This document shows, in pieces, positions 22,981 through 33,078 of a stretch of DNA of 64,000 bases (position 1 is its first letter; each line of letters starts with the position of its first letter). The position numbers were made by a program, and so were the translations under genes. This DNA is from Methylophaga marina. GTDB taxonomy: Bacteria; Pseudomonadota; Gammaproteobacteria; Nitrosococcales; Methylophagaceae. The stretch lies in the NCBI RefSeq assembly GCF_030296755.1, contig NZ_AP027741.1, positions 2,967,001 to 3,031,000 on the forward strand. Direction: 5' to 3'. A model generated the notes under the pieces. The model made no database searches and was not told where the DNA came from. It saw only the letters and a list, made by a program, of their open reading frames with translations.

Positions 22981-24747
22981 TTACCGTTTGAGCATTTTCT
23001 CCATCAACATTCTCAATTGAACCGGTTTAATCGGTTTATGCAAAAGTTGAAAGTCATGTTGTTTAATTTCGTTCACCACACTTTCACTGGTATCCCCAGT
23101 GATAATAACGGTCGGTGTTTTACCCATTATCGTTTCAATATATGAGACAAAACGACAGCCACTATACTGACCAGGCATTCGATAATCGACGAGTAAAAAA
23201 TCTGGCTTTTCCCCGTTATTTATTGCCCTAATGGCCATTTCTGTCGTGGTATAAGCCTGACAAGTGCAACCCCATCCTTGCAACAGTTCGGTCATCGCCT
23301 TAACAATACTGGCTTCATTATCGACGACCATGACATTCAGGTCTTCCAAGATATTGACACGCTGTGGCAGCTCAGCTTCTTGATGTTGGATGAGGTTTTG
23401 TTCATTACTCAAGGGCAAAGATAAGGTAATGTTGGTCCCCTTGCTGACTTCAGACTCGATCTCAATGTGATGTTCAAGTAAGTCCATAATTCGGCGCACA
23501 ATGGCGAGGCCGAGACCTAAACCCTTTTGTCTGTTTCTTTCCGGGTTATCCAGTTGAACAAATTCATCAAAAATATCATCAAGCGAGTCTTTGGGTATGC
23601 CGATGCCGGTGTCATTAATATGAAGCTGGATGTGTTTATGATCTTTCACAGAGACGACAACCCTGATCCCGCCCTGCTTTGTATATCGAACCGCATTCAC
23701 TAACAGGTTTGTGATAACGCGTTCAATCAGTAAAGGATCACTAAAAACGATATGCCTGGTTTTTTCTATGTCCAAACTGAGTCCATGCCTCAGTGCATCA
23801 AGTCGAAACTGGGGCTCAATTTTTGCTAACAAGCTGCCGAGATCAAAGCTGATTTTATTTGCCTGAACGATATTAGCATCCAGACGCGATATATCCATTA
23901 AGACGTCCAATAATTCATTGAGTGATTGCAAGCCTTGTTGGATATTATCTATGTCTCGCTGCTGTGACGGTGATGTCAGCTTCTCGCTTAACAACTCAGT
24001 AAACAGATTAACTGCATGTAGAGGCTGGCGAAGGTCATGGCTGGCTGAAGCCAGAAAACGTGACTTATCTCGATTGGCTTTATCCGCTACTTCTTTTTGT
24101 TCCTGTAGATCACGAATGAGATCCAAATTCTCATATTGCAATCTCAGTGATTGAGTAATGACTTTGTAAATATTGAGACAAAAAGCGAATGTGGCAGCTA
24201 AATAGACAATTGCACCAAAGCCCATCCAGTTGAAAAAATGCTCATCCTGCAACAACATAATGACACTGAGGGGTAACATGACGGGTAATGCAAACGCGGC
24301 ATAGGCTATAGGTCTGGCTGAAAGTGACGCTAAACTGCCAGCGAGCATACAAACAAACGTCAAAATGACAAAAGCCAGATTAGAAATAGCCGCAGGGTCA
24401 AAAAACAGAATGCCAGCACTGCCCCATACACTGCCAGATAGCAACGCCAACAACACCTGAACTTTACCGTACCTGAAAATATCTTCACTCTGTGCCGTTG
24501 ATGTATCTAATGTCTGATAGTGCCACCACCGCACAATAATCAAAAGATACAACACACAAAACCAGCTAATGGCTGCCATGGCATAGGATGTATTCTGCAT
24601 GACTAATGTCATGGGTATCGCACCCAGCGCGTTACCAATAAGTGTCGCCGGGCAATTCCGGTGGGCAATCAGGATTTTTTCAATATCTATCTGTTGCTGA
24701 TAAGGCCCCAGATCATTTGATGCTGGCTGACTGGTGAGTCGAAACAT
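22981..24747 (-). CDS. Membrane hybrid histidine kinase with C-terminal receiver
   Basis: 588 residues. About six hydrophobic helices in residues 35-195 form an uncharacterised membrane sensor. HisKA-type box SRFLASASHDLRQPLHAVNLF, ATPase domain with NLLVNAVRYTKQGG and GLGLGLAIVRRIMDLL, then a receiver domain (VMVVDNEASIVKAM, phospho-Asp in FLLVDYRMPG, Lys in LLHKPIKP). The SHDLRQPLHA type is common in kinases paired with LuxR/NarL regulators. Its start codon overlaps the stop of exactly such a regulator by one base (TAATG). Confidence 0.88.
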   Translation of the reverse strand: MFRLTSQPASNDLGPYQQQIDIEKILIAHRNCPATLIGNALGAIPMTLVMQNTSYAMAAISWFCVLYLLIIVRWWHYQTLDTSTAQSEDIFRYGKVQVLLALLSGSVWGSAGILFFDPAAISNLAFVILTFVCMLAGSLASLSARPIAYAAFALPVMLPLSVIMLLQDEHFFNWMGFGAIVYLAATFAFCLNIYKVITQSLRLQYENLDLIRDLQEQKEVADKANRDKSRFLASASHDLRQPLHAVNLFTELLSEKLTSPSQQRDIDNIQQGLQSLNELLDVLMDISRLDANIVQANKISFDLGSLLAKIEPQFRLDALRHGLSLDIEKTRHIVFSDPLLIERVITNLLVNAVRYTKQGGIRVVVSVKDHKHIQLHINDTGIGIPKDSLDDIFDEFVQLDNPERNRQKGLGLGLAIVRRIMDLLEHHIEIESEVSKGTNITLSLPLSNEQNLIQHQEAELPQRVNILEDLNVMVVDNEASIVKAMTELLQGWGCTCQAYTTTEMAIRAINNGEKPDFLLVDYRMPGQYSGCRFVSYIETIMGKTPTVIITGDTSESVVNEIKQHDFQLLHKPIKPVQLRMLMEKMLKR

Positions 24748-25364
24748 TAATCCAAACCAAGCTGATGGGCTTTTTTACTGGACTCGGAACGACTTTGTGT
24801 CCCCAGTGCCTGAAAAATAGCACTAACGTGTGACTTCACTGTCGGCATGCTGACCGATAATTGTTCTGCAATCGCCTGATTAGAGAAGCCTTGCCTCATC
24901 AGTCTTAAAACTTCCAGTTGTCGCTTTGTAATATTGTGCTGTCTTGCCCACTCCTCTGCGCCAGGTTTTAGATCTGAAGCAGCATTGTCTGGAAACACTT
25001 TCTGCCCAGTCATCACCTTTTCAATCGTGTTAAGAATGGTTTCACCTGAAGAAGATTTAGGAATAAAACTCATCGCACCGAGGTTAAATGCGGTATCGAT
25101 ATCTATCGGATCGGATGAAGCTGAGACAATAATAATCGGCACCAGACAGGATGAATCAGATAAAGACTGTAACAGTTCAAAACCATCCATTATCGGTAAA
25201 CGAAGATCAATCAACGCCACATCATATTGCCCTGACATTAACTTTTCAAAAGCCTCTTGGCCGTTATTGACCGTTTCAATGATATCAATACTATCGGCTT
25301 TGCTAAGTAAGGCTGTTAAGCCATCTAAAAATAACTGATGGTCATCAACCAGTAATAGTTTCAC
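24747..25364 (-). CDS. NarL/LuxR-family response regulator
   Basis: Receiver domain (VDDHQLFLDGLTALL; phospho-Asp in DVALIDLRLPIMDG; Lys in FIPKSSSGE) followed by a LuxR-type helix-turn-helix: ITKRQLEVLRLMRQGFSNQ and AIAEQLSVSMPTVKSHVSAI. 205 residues. First gene of a two-gene operon with the hybrid kinase at 22981. It transcribes away from the repeat surface protein gene upstream, separated by a terminator. Targets unknown. Confidence 0.9.
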   Translation of the reverse strand: MKLLLVDDHQLFLDGLTALLSKADSIDIIETVNNGQEAFEKLMSGQYDVALIDLRLPIMDGFELLQSLSDSSCLVPIIIVSASSDPIDIDTAFNLGAMSFIPKSSSGETILNTIEKVMTGQKVFPDNAASDLKPGAEEWARQHNITKRQLEVLRLMRQGFSNQAIAEQLSVSMPTVKSHVSAIFQALGTQSRSESSKKAHQLGLD

Positions 25365-25441: not shown

Positions 25442-25465
25442 AAAGCCGTCATTAACGACGGCTTT
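25442..25465 (-). terminator. Rho-independent terminator of the repeat surface protein gene
   Basis: AAAGCCGTC (25442-25450) and GACGGCTTT (25457-25465) form a perfect 9-bp stem with a 6-base loop. On the minus strand the stem is followed by seven T. It begins 22 bases after the stop codon of the gene ending at 25488. Confidence 0.88.
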
Positions 25466-25487: not shown

Positions 25488-28400
25488 TTAACGTTGGCTC
25501 ACACGACGACGTATACCAATGAATCCCAGCAGTGCTGGTGCAAACAAGAAAATGGCTGCCGGTACGGGTACCGCACTGACACTTTCAGTAATCACCAGAT
25601 TGGCAAAGGTATCACCGAAGATCACATCAAAATCAAAGCCACTCATCAGCGGCAGAATGATGTTATCAAAACTGCCGACTAAGCTGCTGAAGGTCATGAA
25701 ATTAAAGATCCCGGCTTTAAGCTCTGAACCGATAAAGTCAAAACTCAACACACCCGCCAGTGTCGCCACGCCATTTACAGCAAATATATCCGTGCTATTA
25801 CCATCAAACTCGATATTCATTACAACAAATGTACCTTGGGTGTAATTGCCATTCACCGTCAGTTTACTGATAGAGTTACCTGGGGTCAGGCTGGCATAAT
25901 CGCTATAGCTGGTACCGTTCACTAACACATTGCTATTAATCACGCCGTGGCCGTTCAAGTTACCGCCATTAATCTTGACGCTCTTTTGGGTCATGCTGCC
26001 ATTTACTGTTGTGCTGCCAGCCGTTTGAATAAACTCACCACTGCCAGACACAATGTGGCCATCTGTCGTAATAAATTGACCAGAGTTGGTGATAATGCCG
26101 TTATTTTTTAATGTCCCTTGATTGGATAAGACACCTGCATTCTCAATCGTTGCTTGGTTGTTGATCTCACCAAAGTTAGTGAAGTTACCGCTACTTTTAT
26201 TGCTTATCTTTGAGGTATTCGATAGCGAACCAGTGGAGGCATTGGTCAGTTTTCCTTCATTGGAGACGCTATTTTTATTATACAAAAGCCAGTGATTATT
26301 AAACTCACCGGTGTTAGTGATGACACCGTTATTCTCCATGGCCAGAGTATTGAACTCACCGGCATTAGCAAATGTGTTGTTGTTATAAAACTCCCCGGTA
26401 TTATTAAAAAGCGCACCCGTGTTATTCGTTATGCGACCTGCATTGGTGAGTCTATTATCGCTAATGAATCGACCGCTATTATTGATTTGGCCGGATGAAG
26501 CCACATTGAGATCACCTGAGGCTGAGTTAGTCAGCTGACCGCTATTGCTCAGTACCCCCTCAACGTTGAACTCATCGTTATTATTGAGCACGCCGGTATT
26601 ATTGAGCGTTGCACCGACTTTATTTTTTAAGACAGAGGCATTAGTCAGTGTGCCAGCATTCTCAAAGGTGCCGCTATTTACAAACACGCCAGTATTGACA
26701 ATATTGCCTCCAGCCAGGTTTGTCACGGTAGCGAAGTTATTGAAGGTACTGGTGTCAGTATTATTTATCACGCCAGTATTGGTAATGGTGTTTTCATTAT
26801 CCAGCAGCCAATAACTTGTCAGCGTGCCGGAATTGGCAATAGTCCCCGTATTTTGAAGGCCGACAGAGTTAATTGCCCCTTCACTATTCAAGGTGCCATT
26901 GTTAAAAAACTCTTCCGTGTTATTGATTGTGCCGTTAACCGCATTATTGATAACACCATAATTTATCAGCCGAGCGTCATTTGACAGCATTCCCCGGTTT
27001 GTCATCGTGCCACTACTGGACAGTGTCATCTCAGCCGAACCGGTATTACTGATGTAATTATAGTTAGTTAACTGGCCACTGGTTGAAAATACAGCCGTAT
27101 TATTTATTTGTCGGTTATTAATCAAGGCGCCATTATTCGCTAAGGTACCTGAGTTATTCAGCGTGCCATCGTTCGTTAAAGAGCCCGAATCACTGTTGGT
27201 GAGTAAGGTTTCATTATCAAGCTGACTGTAATAGCTCATATTAAACTCACCTTCATTAGTGATGTTCGAGGGTGAATATTTCTGATTCAGCAATTTACCC
27301 TTCAGGTTAAGGGTGCCATCAGATTTATTGATGAGGGTATTAACGTTAGCAACCTCTGCATAGTCATCAATCAAAAACTGGCTGTAATTATTTACTGTGG
27401 CGCTATTAACAAATTTACCCTGATCAATAAATTGGCCGTGATTATTGATATCGCCATAATTTGCCATTGTGGAATATAAAGTGGAGGTAAATGTGCCCTT
27501 ATTGTTCAGCACACCGCCATTGGCAAACACACCGCTGTTGAGGAATTGCCCGTTTTCGTTGTTATTTAAAGTGCCAGCATTAGCAAATTGACCACTATCT
27601 GAGTTAATCAAGCTACCCGCATTGTTGAGTGTGCCGGTTTCGTTATTTCTGATAATGCCGTGATTGGTTAAGGTGCCACCGGCCTGATTGCTGAGTATGC
27701 CGTTGTTATTCAAACTTGCTGTTGTATGATTAACAAAACTGGCCATATTAGCGTTGTCGAATCTGCCAGTTTGCTGATTGTTGAAAGTTGCGTGATTATT
27801 TACGATACCATTTGCTTGATTATTGAAGGCAGAAGCGTTGGTAAATTGAGCACCACTATTATTGTTGACTACACCGTTGTTATTGAACGTGGCATCCTTC
27901 TCATTGGACATCGTGGCATTGTTGTTTATTGTGCCAGTATTCTCTAGCTTTCCCTTTTTATACTCGTTACCAAGGTAAGTATAGCCAGCTCTATTTACGA
28001 AATTGCTATCATTTGTAATCAAACCTGTATTCGTGAATTTATAAAATGTGGTGAATGAATGACTGGTGGTATTGTTTAGTTGACCTGTGTTAAGGAATAT
28101 ACCCTCATTTTCTACGCTAGAGTCATTTTGAAAAACACCTTCATTTTTAAAAGATGAACCGATTCTATTATGAAGAAATCTATTATTCTGAAATATGCCT
28201 GAGGCTCTGTTTTCAACTTCGCCATATCTGTTATTAAAAAACAATCCCGTATTTTCGTATAGACCGGCGTTTGTAATCTTTCCGTAATTTTTTATCGTAG
28301 GCAGCGATGTACCGTTGTTTGTTACCACCCCATCTTGGTCAATGAATATATTGCCACCGTTACGATGCTCACCGGTCATTTCCCATCTACCATTGGTAGA

Positions 28401-28826
28401 GATATAACCGCCACTAAAATTCTCAAGGTAATGAGACTTAAAGACGGAGTTACTGCCATTTTGGATAGCCGCTTTATTCCAAATATTGCCTCTATAACTA
28501 TCAAAGGTGGCATTATTCTCGATTAAGTGCTCATTGGTTATCCAACCCCGGTTATCGATTAAGCCATTATTAATTACAGTGCCAGAAGTCATATTGACAA
28601 AACTATTACCACCACCCGATTTAGATAGATTGCCACCTGCTGTAATAGTTATTTTACTCGCGTTTTTATATCCATCTAAGCCGATATAACCATCGCTAAC
28701 GGTGATGGGAGATGTGTTTGTACCGTGGAGTCCTGTGACAGCATGCACAACTGACGGTGTCAGTAAAAATGAGCTGCACAGCAACGTAGTTGAGAGCGAC
28801 AGAAACTGTCGTTGTTTATTTATCAT
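25488..28826 (-). CDS. Giant Asn-rich repeat surface protein with VPxPA-CTERM sorting tail
   Basis: About 1112 residues. Signal peptide 1-31 (SSFLLTPSVVHA). Residues ~60-960 are dozens of 14-20-residue degenerate repeats of the type N-N-x-G-x-L/F-x-N (e.g. GTLNNNENGQFLNSGVF), predicted to form a long beta-solenoid. Residues ~960-1080 resemble the end module of autotransporter passengers (LTPGNSISKLTVNGNYTQG). The tail VPVPAAIFLFAPALLGFIG plus IRRR is a VPLPA/PEP-CTERM-type sorting signal, so an exosortase elsewhere should anchor or release it. ATG preferred over the GTG one codon upstream. Likely a biofilm or adhesion fibre; controlled by the leader riboswitch. Confidence 0.85.
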   Translation of the reverse strand: MINKQRQFLSLSTTLLCSSFLLTPSVVHAVTGLHGTNTSPITVSDGYIGLDGYKNASKITITAGGNLSKSGGGNSFVNMTSGTVINNGLIDNRGWITNEHLIENNATFDSYRGNIWNKAAIQNGSNSVFKSHYLENFSGGYISTNGRWEMTGEHRNGGNIFIDQDGVVTNNGTSLPTIKNYGKITNAGLYENTGLFFNNRYGEVENRASGIFQNNRFLHNRIGSSFKNEGVFQNDSSVENEGIFLNTGQLNNTTSHSFTTFYKFTNTGLITNDSNFVNRAGYTYLGNEYKKGKLENTGTINNNATMSNEKDATFNNNGVVNNNSGAQFTNASAFNNQANGIVNNHATFNNQQTGRFDNANMASFVNHTTASLNNNGILSNQAGGTLTNHGIIRNNETGTLNNAGSLINSDSGQFANAGTLNNNENGQFLNSGVFANGGVLNNKGTFTSTLYSTMANYGDINNHGQFIDQGKFVNSATVNNYSQFLIDDYAEVANVNTLINKSDGTLNLKGKLLNQKYSPSNITNEGEFNMSYYSQLDNETLLTNSDSGSLTNDGTLNNSGTLANNGALINNRQINNTAVFSTSGQLTNYNYISNTGSAEMTLSSSGTMTNRGMLSNDARLINYGVINNAVNGTINNTEEFFNNGTLNSEGAINSVGLQNTGTIANSGTLTSYWLLDNENTITNTGVINNTDTSTFNNFATVTNLAGGNIVNTGVFVNSGTFENAGTLTNASVLKNKVGATLNNTGVLNNNDEFNVEGVLSNSGQLTNSASGDLNVASSGQINNSGRFISDNRLTNAGRITNNTGALFNNTGEFYNNNTFANAGEFNTLAMENNGVITNTGEFNNHWLLYNKNSVSNEGKLTNASTGSLSNTSKISNKSSGNFTNFGEINNQATIENAGVLSNQGTLKNNGIITNSGQFITTDGHIVSGSGEFIQTAGSTTVNGSMTQKSVKINGGNLNGHGVINSNVLVNGTSYSDYASLTPGNSISKLTVNGNYTQGTFVVMNIEFDGNSTDIFAVNGVATLAGVLSFDFIGSELKAGIFNFMTFSSLVGSFDNIILPLMSGFDFDVIFGDTFANLVITESVSAVPVPAAIFLFAPALLGFIGIRRRVSQR

Positions 28827-28846
28827 CACTCGGATTCCTTGCGTTT

Positions 28847-28923
28847 GTGCAACCCAGCCACCTTGTTAAACAACAAGGCCTGTGGCTTTCCGTCCCTGAT
28901 TCACACCAAGTTTGGCCGATTAA
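28847..28923 (-). promoter_or_regulatory. Cyclic-di-GMP-I (GEMM-I) riboswitch in the leader of the repeat protein gene
   Basis: Read on the minus strand, the leader contains GGCCAAAC, a 6-bp stem CUUGGU/AUCAGG capped by a GUGA (GNRA) tetraloop, the core GGGACGGAAAGCC, a hairpin CCUUGUU-GUUU-AACAAGG, and the closing GGUGGCUGGGUUGC. Order and spacing match GEMM-I RNAs (consensus GGCAAACC, GGGACGCAAAGCC, GGUAGCGGGGUUACC). GCC and GGC close the second helix. The core has GGAAAG where most have GCAAAG, and the outer P1 pairing is weak. UUGC at the 3' end could pair with GCAA beside the SD (AAGGA), suggesting translational control. Confidence 0.75.
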
Positions 28924-29009
28924 ATAACACGTCGATCATAATGAAAGGGGGTATAGCGACTATCAGCCAAAAGTATGATTTTGTGAGAAAAATAAAATAA
29001 GCAATAAAA

Positions 29010-29030
29010 AAGGGAGTCACTGACTCCCTT
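29010..29030 (-). terminator. Rho-independent terminator of the EF-hand gene
   Basis: AAGGGAGTC (29010-29018) and GACTCCCTT (29022-29030) form a perfect 9-bp stem with a three-base loop. On the minus strand it is followed by a T-rich tract. It lies 25 bases past the stop codon of the EF-hand gene and upstream of the riboswitch. Confidence 0.85.
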
Positions 29031-29054
29031 CTAAATATGGTGTGATAAAAGAAA

Positions 29055-32163: not shown

Positions 32164-33078
32164 TCAGATGACAGGTGCAGCTGTTTGTTTACGCTGGCTA
32201 AGAAGTTGATTTAATCGTTTAATTAACGAATCAGAATCATCCCTTTTTGCCATGGTAATGGCGGTCGTTGCTGTTAAATAGACACGCTGCTGTGACTCCT
32301 GCGTACGGTAAGCAAAACTGGCTACCGCATGTTGCAGATCCTGACTCAGCTGTTTTGCCTCAGCCTCATCGGTGTCGTGTAAGAGGATGACGAAACGGTC
32401 GCCAGCCAAGCGACAGATCAAATCCTTATCACGCAGGTTTAACAGTAATAGCTGACAGACCAGCTGGAGGATGTGATCGCCCTCTTTTATGCCATACAAA
32501 CGATTAATCACATTGAAATCATCAAGATCAATGGCGATGAGCGCCAATGGTTGCTGATTCTTTTTACTCTCTGCCAAGGATAGCTTGAGCTGTTTTTTTA
32601 AATAAGCGCCGCCGCCAACAGGCATAAGCTTGTCAAACAAACGGTGCTCGCGAAAATACCGTTCACGTTTTACCATTTGAGCACTGATAGCAATTTCTTC
32701 CTGATGCCAATGATAGATACCAATACTTAATAATATTAAGGCAATAGGTATCGGCATACTTTCAAGCCAGTTGTGCCAGATTAAGGTTGATGGCATACGA
32801 ATGAACTCATCCATAAAGTCCATCGACCAGGAAAAAACAATGGCGCATAAACCAAATGCCAACAGCCGCGTTACTCTGCCTGCAGGTCGACTCCGAAGTA
32901 ATAAGGCCAACCAGAAAAAGGCTAGGATGACCATGCCGCCCTCTGACATAACATCCAACCAGTTCACCTCGCTTATCGGCTTTACGTCACCCCTTGCTCG
33001 TAAAATGAGGGTCCCGGAAACAATAGCTGTCGCCAAGCCATAAAAATAAGAAGTCTGTAAAAACGGTCGTTTTTTCAT
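32164..33078 (-). CDS. Membrane protein with degenerate GGDEF domain
   Basis: 304 residues. Four hydrophobic helices in residues 10-125 form a membrane module; the C-terminal 170 residues have the GGDEF fold (LALIAIDLDDFNVINRLYG, DGDHILQLV-like GDHILQLVCQLLL). The active-site motif is LAGDRF instead of GGDEF/GGEEF, and the usual DxLTGLxNR start is missing, so it is unlikely to make c-di-GMP. It could bind nucleotide as an effector. Co-transcribed with the AraC regulator. Confidence 0.82.
   Translation of the reverse strand: MKKRPFLQTSYFYGLATAIVSGTLILRARGDVKPISEVNWLDVMSEGGMVILAFFWLALLLRSRPAGRVTRLLAFGLCAIVFSWSMDFMDEFIRMPSTLIWHNWLESMPIPIALILLSIGIYHWHQEEIAISAQMVKRERYFREHRLFDKLMPVGGGAYLKKQLKLSLAESKKNQQPLALIAIDLDDFNVINRLYGIKEGDHILQLVCQLLLLNLRDKDLICRLAGDRFVILLHDTDEAEAKQLSQDLQHAVASFAYRTQESQQRVYLTATTAITMAKRDDSDSLIKRLNQLLSQRKQTAAPVI

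Follow-up and report, generated by a model that had tools for sequence, protein, structure and literature searches.

In the PEP-CTERM/EpsH system (Haft et al. 2006, PMC1569441) a multi-transmembrane exosortase with a proposed catalytic triad of Cys, Arg and His is encoded in a polysaccharide gene cluster, and its many substrates, each encoded by a single gene, carry a signal peptide and a tail made of a motif, a hydrophobic stretch and a basic cluster. Such systems occur in many environmental bacteria. What governs the timing of substrate synthesis has been described chiefly for a sigma-54 site, PrsR being the established sigma-54 regulator of genes for PEP-CTERM proteins (PMC1569441). In Clostridioides difficile, a cyclic diguanylate (c-di-GMP) riboswitch controls the surface proteins CD2831 and CD3246, which are sorted by a transpeptidase-like enzyme (PMC7865049); this is the nearest functional parallel to the locus described here. 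The nearest prior report is a riboswitch table for Methylophaga nitratireducenticrescens GP59 (PMC12530212, 2025), in which c-di-GMP riboswitches of the same genus adjoin PEP-CTERM/VPLPA genes. The present analysis concerns a gene within a 64,000-nucleotide stretch of Methylophaga marina (contig NZ_AP027741.1, positions 2,967,001 to 3,031,000; hereafter the window, to which coordinates refer unless stated). It encodes an Asn-rich protein with a predicted beta-solenoid, an autotransporter-like C-terminal module and a probable VPLPA-CTERM sorting tail, and is preceded by a c-di-GMP-I riboswitch.

The reading we prefer, with a probability of roughly 0.66, is that this protein is a surface or biofilm-matrix rod which is sorted by the exosortase XrtD and belongs to a c-di-GMP riboswitch regulon that is specific to the family and dedicated to exosortase substrates. 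The initial annotation, made from the letters of the window, had missed both the riboswitch and the regulon, and the latter constitutes the wider finding. The gene and its leader contain the following elements.

25488..28826, minus strand: coding sequence of the 1112-amino-acid VPLPA-CTERM solenoid protein (open reading frame; ATG at 28826, with GTG at 28829 also possible)
28845..28926, minus strand: aptamer of a c-di-GMP-I riboswitch in the 5' leader (full-length match to RF01051, positions 1-87, scoring 57.2 bits where the cut-off is 35)
28836..28840, minus strand: Shine-Dalgarno-like AAGGA between aptamer and ATG, read directly, with a spacing of 9 nucleotides

The aptamer lies 18 nucleotides from the ATG. 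Profile and pattern searches of the whole genome (G000) found 14 RF01051 copies above the cut-off, and all 14 lead a VPLPA-CTERM gene within 36 nucleotides, for which the hypergeometric probability is about 1e-34 if the genes are assumed to be independent. The 14 genes fall into nine unrelated families of mature proteins. In every copy the ligand-contact residues G20, A47 and C92 are invariant (Vc2 numbering from PMC4744006, mapped by us onto the aptamers); the sequences have otherwise diverged while pairing is kept, with both-sided compensatory changes in 15 of 21 pairs. The c-di-GMP-I-GGC variant was rejected for the window aptamer, which scores 51.2 bits with RF03167 (cut-off 59) and has an A at the A47 position; three sibling aptamers do exceed that cut-off. 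Matches to RybB and the L20 leader near 29000 were likewise dismissed, being below cut-off and located on a terminator hairpin.

For the distribution of this arrangement 58 relative genomes were scanned, and the genes behind the riboswitches of the genus and family were inspected. The other Methylophagaceae contain 88 riboswitches, 82 of which lead a tail gene that is intact or was read as such by the script; one leads a tail gene with a broken frame and three run off the contig, so that 83 of the 85 assessable riboswitches precede a tail gene. The two exceptions are a secreted metalloprotease-like protein in genome G033 and a riboswitch in G032 with no gene on its strand. The metalloprotease-like protein (L126) lacks the tail, and its genome lacks XrtD. 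Among the 82, one riboswitch-led VPLPA gene (L153, in G027) appears degenerate by eye; its genome also lacks XrtD, suggesting that substrate and enzyme were lost together. Counted by genome, XrtD and riboswitches co-occur as 17/1/3/14, an agreement in 31 of 35 family members (Fisher p = 4e-6, ignoring kinship). Further homologue loci of the solenoid-plus-tail type have a riboswitch just upstream in six of seven cases.

Outside the family, 40 genomes with XrtD contain 17 riboswitches and only four of these lead VPLPA genes. A general rule linking exosortases to riboswitches was rejected for this reason, and the wiring is therefore taken as a trait of the family with sporadic parallels. In six non-family genomes (G038-G053) riboswitches lead other genes. 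The isolated pairs of riboswitch and VPLPA-CTERM gene (L168, L170, L171 and L172) come from four other gammaproteobacterial families with XrtD, which suggests parallel recruitment.

The C-terminal tail has the following position.

25491..25577, minus strand: VPLPA-CTERM sorting tail with SAVPVPAA motif, hydrophobic stretch and RRR (direct reading), also present on 17 other proteins of the genome

A VPxPA motif, a hydrophobic stretch and a basic cluster stand at the extreme end of the protein (SAVPVPAAIFLFAPALLGFIGIRRR), whose C-terminus reads SVSAVPVPAAIFLFAPALLGFIGIRRRVSQR. A genome-tailored profile, seeded with 13 tails of G000, gives this tail 68.9 bits, its own sequence being part of the seed. 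The profile finds 18 places in the genome, 17 of them strong and one weaker. The weaker place (L262, C1:2397827) is a second passenger-like VPLPA-CTERM protein, with a 498-residue open frame and no riboswitch hit. The only exosortase of the genome is the VPLPA-specific XrtD (TIGR04152, 524.4 bits, cut-off 400), which retains the Cys, Arg and His of the proposed triad. The initial annotation had expected an exosortase, which is present, and one of XrtA type, which it is not (XrtA model 127 bits, cut-off 208). The xrtD gene sits among polysaccharide genes and is followed by a PrsT-like TPR protein, whose 249.6 bits fall short of the cut-off. From the likeness of the tail to its genome siblings and the presence of XrtD, the protein is a probable VPLPA-CTERM/XrtD substrate.

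The protein itself begins with a putative signal peptide and an N-terminal stretch; the Asn-rich repeat comes next, then a C-terminal module containing LTPGNSISKLTVNGNYTQG, and last the tail SAVPVPAAIFLFAPALLGFIGIRRRVSQR.

28737..28826, minus strand: putative N-terminal signal peptide, residues 1-30 (MINKQRQFLSLSTTLLCSSFLLTPSVVHAV), by direct reading
26046..28580, minus strand: Asn-rich repeat and predicted beta-solenoid, residues about 83-927, about 40 coils (periodicity, AlphaFold, strand count)
25578..26144, minus strand: autotransporter autochaperone-like module, residues 895-1083 (model, structure matches, barrel-linked relatives)

Residues 1-30 show clear n, h and c regions by eye and are 97–100% identical among orthologues. 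The closest relatives are, by the names of their contigs, Methylophaga aminisulfidivorans MP, M. sulfidovorans DSM 11578 and Methylophaga sp. SAT92. Three orthologues are each exactly 1112 amino acids long, with pairwise identities of 91–99.7% and a ratio of nonsynonymous to synonymous substitution (dN/dS) of 0.17–0.37; the gene is therefore considered to be intact and under purifying selection. Other Methylophaga have shorter relatives of 460 to about 810 amino acids, in which both ends are common and the repeats fewer. Neither the Protein Data Bank, searched by sequence, nor viral contigs yielded a relative of the protein.

The repeat spans about 840 residues, Asn accounts for 197 of 1113 residues of the protein, and autocorrelation against shuffled sequences peaks at 6 residues (z = 11.0), followed by 20 (z = 6.2) and 14 (z = 6.0). 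In the full-length AlphaFold model (mean predicted local distance difference test, pLDDT, of 73.3; about 85–97 over most of residues 180-480) strands of four residues, mostly 6 or 8 residues apart, number 119 and would form about 40 coils, giving a length of about 19 nm if three strands per coil are assumed. Among solved structures, Foldseek places Ag43 and TibA nearest to this model (E 7.5e-5 to 5e-3). The VIA-align match to TibA (Z 18.3, 3.5 Å, 250 residues) indicates a fold class and not kinship, since many unrelated beta-helices reach Z values of 15–18. The repeat family shared by type V secretion and PEP-CTERM proteins, rpt_T5SS_PEPC (TIGR04393), is not found in the genome even when E values up to 10 are allowed; its very existence in NCBIfam indicates that the mixing of passengers and PEP-CTERM is already a known theme.

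The C-terminal module gives a much more confident model by itself than the full-length protein does (mean pLDDT 88.8, mostly 90–98). It aligns with the C-terminal passenger part of Ssp at Z 19.7 (2.4 Å, 178 residues) and with the passengers of IcsA (Z 17.5), Ag43 (15.8) and pertactin (15.4), and with the IcsA autochaperone region at 12.5. Its sequence relatives include passengers from Dyella, Candidimonas, Trinickia and other genera in which a PF03797 barrel comes next (eight of eight cases tested), as well as proteins, such as L195, that end in PEP-CTERM tails. Two further proteins with the same module (L188, L191) have dockerin-like ends instead of a barrel or a PEP-CTERM tail. In the Methylophaga protein only the 29-residue tail follows the module, Pfam detects no PF03797, and no Pfam or NCBIfam family exceeds its cut-off anywhere in the 1112 amino acids, from which we conclude that there is no beta-barrel. 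Judged as a classical type Va autotransporter, the protein has the beta-helical passenger with an autochaperone-type end, according to the predicted structure, and lacks the C-terminal barrel; it is not filed as an autotransporter for that reason.

Much of the initial annotation of the protein thus holds. Its coordinates were exact, the likeness of the C-terminal module to autotransporter passengers is borne out by sequence and structure, the absence of a barrel agrees with the family searches, and the mixture of passenger module and exosortase-type tail is real, as the barrel-linked and PEP-CTERM-tailed relatives demonstrate. The long Asn/Gly repeat is real, and a solenoid, as proposed for it, is what the suggested structure prediction returns; the supposed length of many tens of nanometres was too great. 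The proposal of an exosortase-sorted surface fibre of passenger type is supported, as far as sequences and models can tell, by XrtD and the 18 tailed proteins of the genome.

Taken as a mechanism, the preferred reading would run as follows. Binding of c-di-GMP to the leader would most likely raise translation at high c-di-GMP, and the product, one of 14 putative riboswitch-controlled XrtD substrates in the genome, would be exported by its putative Sec signal peptide. The predicted three-sided solenoid would fold from its C-terminal autochaperone-like cap. By analogy with its protein family, the VPLPA-CTERM tail may anchor the C-terminus in the inner membrane. XrtD would then cut the tail and deliver the protein to the outer surface or the exopolysaccharide matrix, and there the Asn-rich face of the solenoid could mediate adhesion between cells or of cells to the matrix, as it does for Ag43-like proteins. 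The broader proposition, which we hold to be slightly better than an even bet, is that in Methylophagaceae XrtD sorting is coupled to c-di-GMP through RNA: almost all substrates would have a riboswitch of their own, of a class unused for anything else in the M. marina genome, and a single messenger would set the composition of the coat, including a barrel-less autotransporter-type rod that reaches the surface via an exosortase.

A number of observations weigh against the preferred reading. The full-length solenoid model was built on only 7 sequences, and models range from 33.6 to 73.3. Folding of the window leader with the P1 stem forced leaves the AUG paired and does not give the sign of the switch; folding was tried in three ways, with no clear answer for the window gene. 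The Ribo5 transcript of GP59 is higher in planktonic cells (PMC12530212). The check with TIGR03370 that the initial annotation had suggested fails for the tail alone (9.5 bits; 15.6 in the genome scan; cut-off 25.35). Three sibling proteins in the genome do exceed that cut-off, which is an annotation threshold and not a biological feature, and membership is accordingly called probable rather than certain. Finally, xrtD differs from its relatives by one base in a poly-A run (L001:1380-1560; C1 near 2305141-2305215 of the genome), splitting off the first 30 or so model positions; this may be a sequencing or assembly slip, or the enzyme may be shortened or phase-variable.

The alternative that survives best is that high c-di-GMP shuts the gene off through the riboswitch, which would make the product a protein of the motile state and not of the biofilm matrix. 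The paired start codon would fit, and c-di-GMP-I OFF switches are known (PMC4744006), as is the ON type, exemplified by the GbpA riboswitch Vc1 (PMC4744006). In GP59, however, three of four PEP-CTERM-linked riboswitch transcripts are higher in biofilm (PMC12530212). In the MKKAML paralogues the 3' end of the aptamer pairs with the start region, at a mean of -13.2 against -5.7 kcal/mol for mismatched combinations, and in our reading of the sequences this pairing would be exclusive with P1. Both lines favour the ON sign, and an OFF switch is considered rather unlikely. As an observation in its own right, the complementarity of the aptamer 3' end to the family's own first codons (L041, L042, L039 and relatives) makes a start-codon-blocking expression platform likely there.

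The linkage could also be mostly one of inheritance, a single cassette of riboswitch plus gene having been duplicated repeatedly, so that the count would overstate the regulon. Six of the 14 genes in the genome do form one paralogous family, 34 of 96 proteins across genomes fall into one cluster, and the MKKAML group is alike in leader and first codons. The remaining genes, however, belong to 23 further unrelated clusters, nine families being present in M. marina alone, and the aptamers have diverged and yet kept their structure. Duplication also leaves unexplained why no non-substrate gene of this genome has such a riboswitch, and as the main cause of the pattern it appears unlikely.

Less probable again is that the tail serves as a simple membrane anchor at the C-terminus that would leave the rod in the inner membrane, facing the periplasm, without involvement of an exosortase. 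The curated VPLPA and PEP models do miss the tail alone, and the reading frame of XrtD is interrupted near its start. Against this, the motif common to the 18 proteins, including VPxPAA before the hydrophobic stretch, would be needless for an anchor, XrtD and riboswitch-led tail genes co-occur in the family, and in the XrtD-less G027 the one tail gene retained is a degraded copy. On sequence grounds a plain anchor is thus unlikely. That the protein is an autotransporter remnant without present function, a passenger which lost its barrel and gained a tail, would agree with the homology of its module to barrel-linked passengers and is very improbable given purifying selection, a length exactly kept in four genomes, its own retained riboswitch and the fact that other Methylophaga have relatives of 460–810 amino acids whose two ends match.

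Returning to the regulon as preferred here, no protein of the genome reaches the curated PrsR cut-off of 502.6 bits, the best scoring 361.5. A palindrome, GTACYAARGTAC, occurs upstream of 46 of 99 riboswitch leaders, with 0.0155 expected per 120 nucleotides; it is absent within 120 nucleotides upstream of the window gene. The genome has eight copies of its 14-base form, all of them upstream of VPLPA-CTERM genes, and none of the reversed control. These sites and the hairpins on either side of the solenoid gene are given below.

Genome (G000) C1:534735, 578861, 579003, 2024399, 2117538, 2279013, 2279760 and 2392000: palindrome GTACYAADGTACAA (L263-L270)
25445..25459, minus strand: intrinsic-terminator-like hairpin, core stem, 3' of the gene
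29008..29032, minus strand: terminator-like hairpin of the upstream EF-hand gene, between that gene and the solenoid gene

The flanking hairpins suggest that the gene is probably transcribed alone. Directly downstream lie a hybrid histidine kinase and a LuxR-type response regulator (22981-25364, minus strand), and about 3.3 kb upstream a GGDEF-domain protein (32164-33078, minus strand) whose signature AGDRF suggests that it may be inactive as a diguanylate cyclase.

If the regulon operates as proposed, one biofilm signal could switch a whole sorted surface coat. The DNA reveals a direct link of exosortase substrates to c-di-GMP, in a genus that can be cultivated and has a single exosortase with some 18 such substrates, and exosortase function should therefore be testable here. 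The autochaperone-like module on a barrel-less protein poses the question of how passenger-type rods might get through the outer membrane without type V secretion. The open-licence full-text literature, which lacks most subscription papers, yielded no description of a regulon joining riboswitches to PEP-CTERM or exosortase genes.

Compared with the type V autotransporters Ag43, TibA, Ssp, IcsA and pertactin, the Methylophaga protein shares the beta-solenoid passenger with an autochaperone-like end, and its module is homologous in sequence to passengers with PF03797; it differs in having no beta-barrel and an exosortase tail at its end. It resembles the PEP-CTERM/EpsH substrates, in their VPLPA-CTERM/XrtD class (TIGR04152, TIGR03370), in all the features named at the outset, the signal peptide being putative, and differs from them in that c-di-GMP-I riboswitches stand here where proteobacterial PEP-CTERM genes are described to have a sigma-54/PrsK-PrsR site. 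The GP59 table lists four of seven pairs of riboswitch and PEP-CTERM/VPLPA gene, does not name the exosortase and makes no statement of a regulon. The riboswitch positions in genome G007 nearly equal those of that table, and there the gene after the counterpart of the 'Thrombospondin' riboswitch also has a VPLPA tail. C. difficile, finally, is Gram-positive and employs a class II riboswitch and the sortase SrtB for few genes, whereas the M. marina genome combines class I riboswitches with an exosortase and involves essentially its entire riboswitch set.

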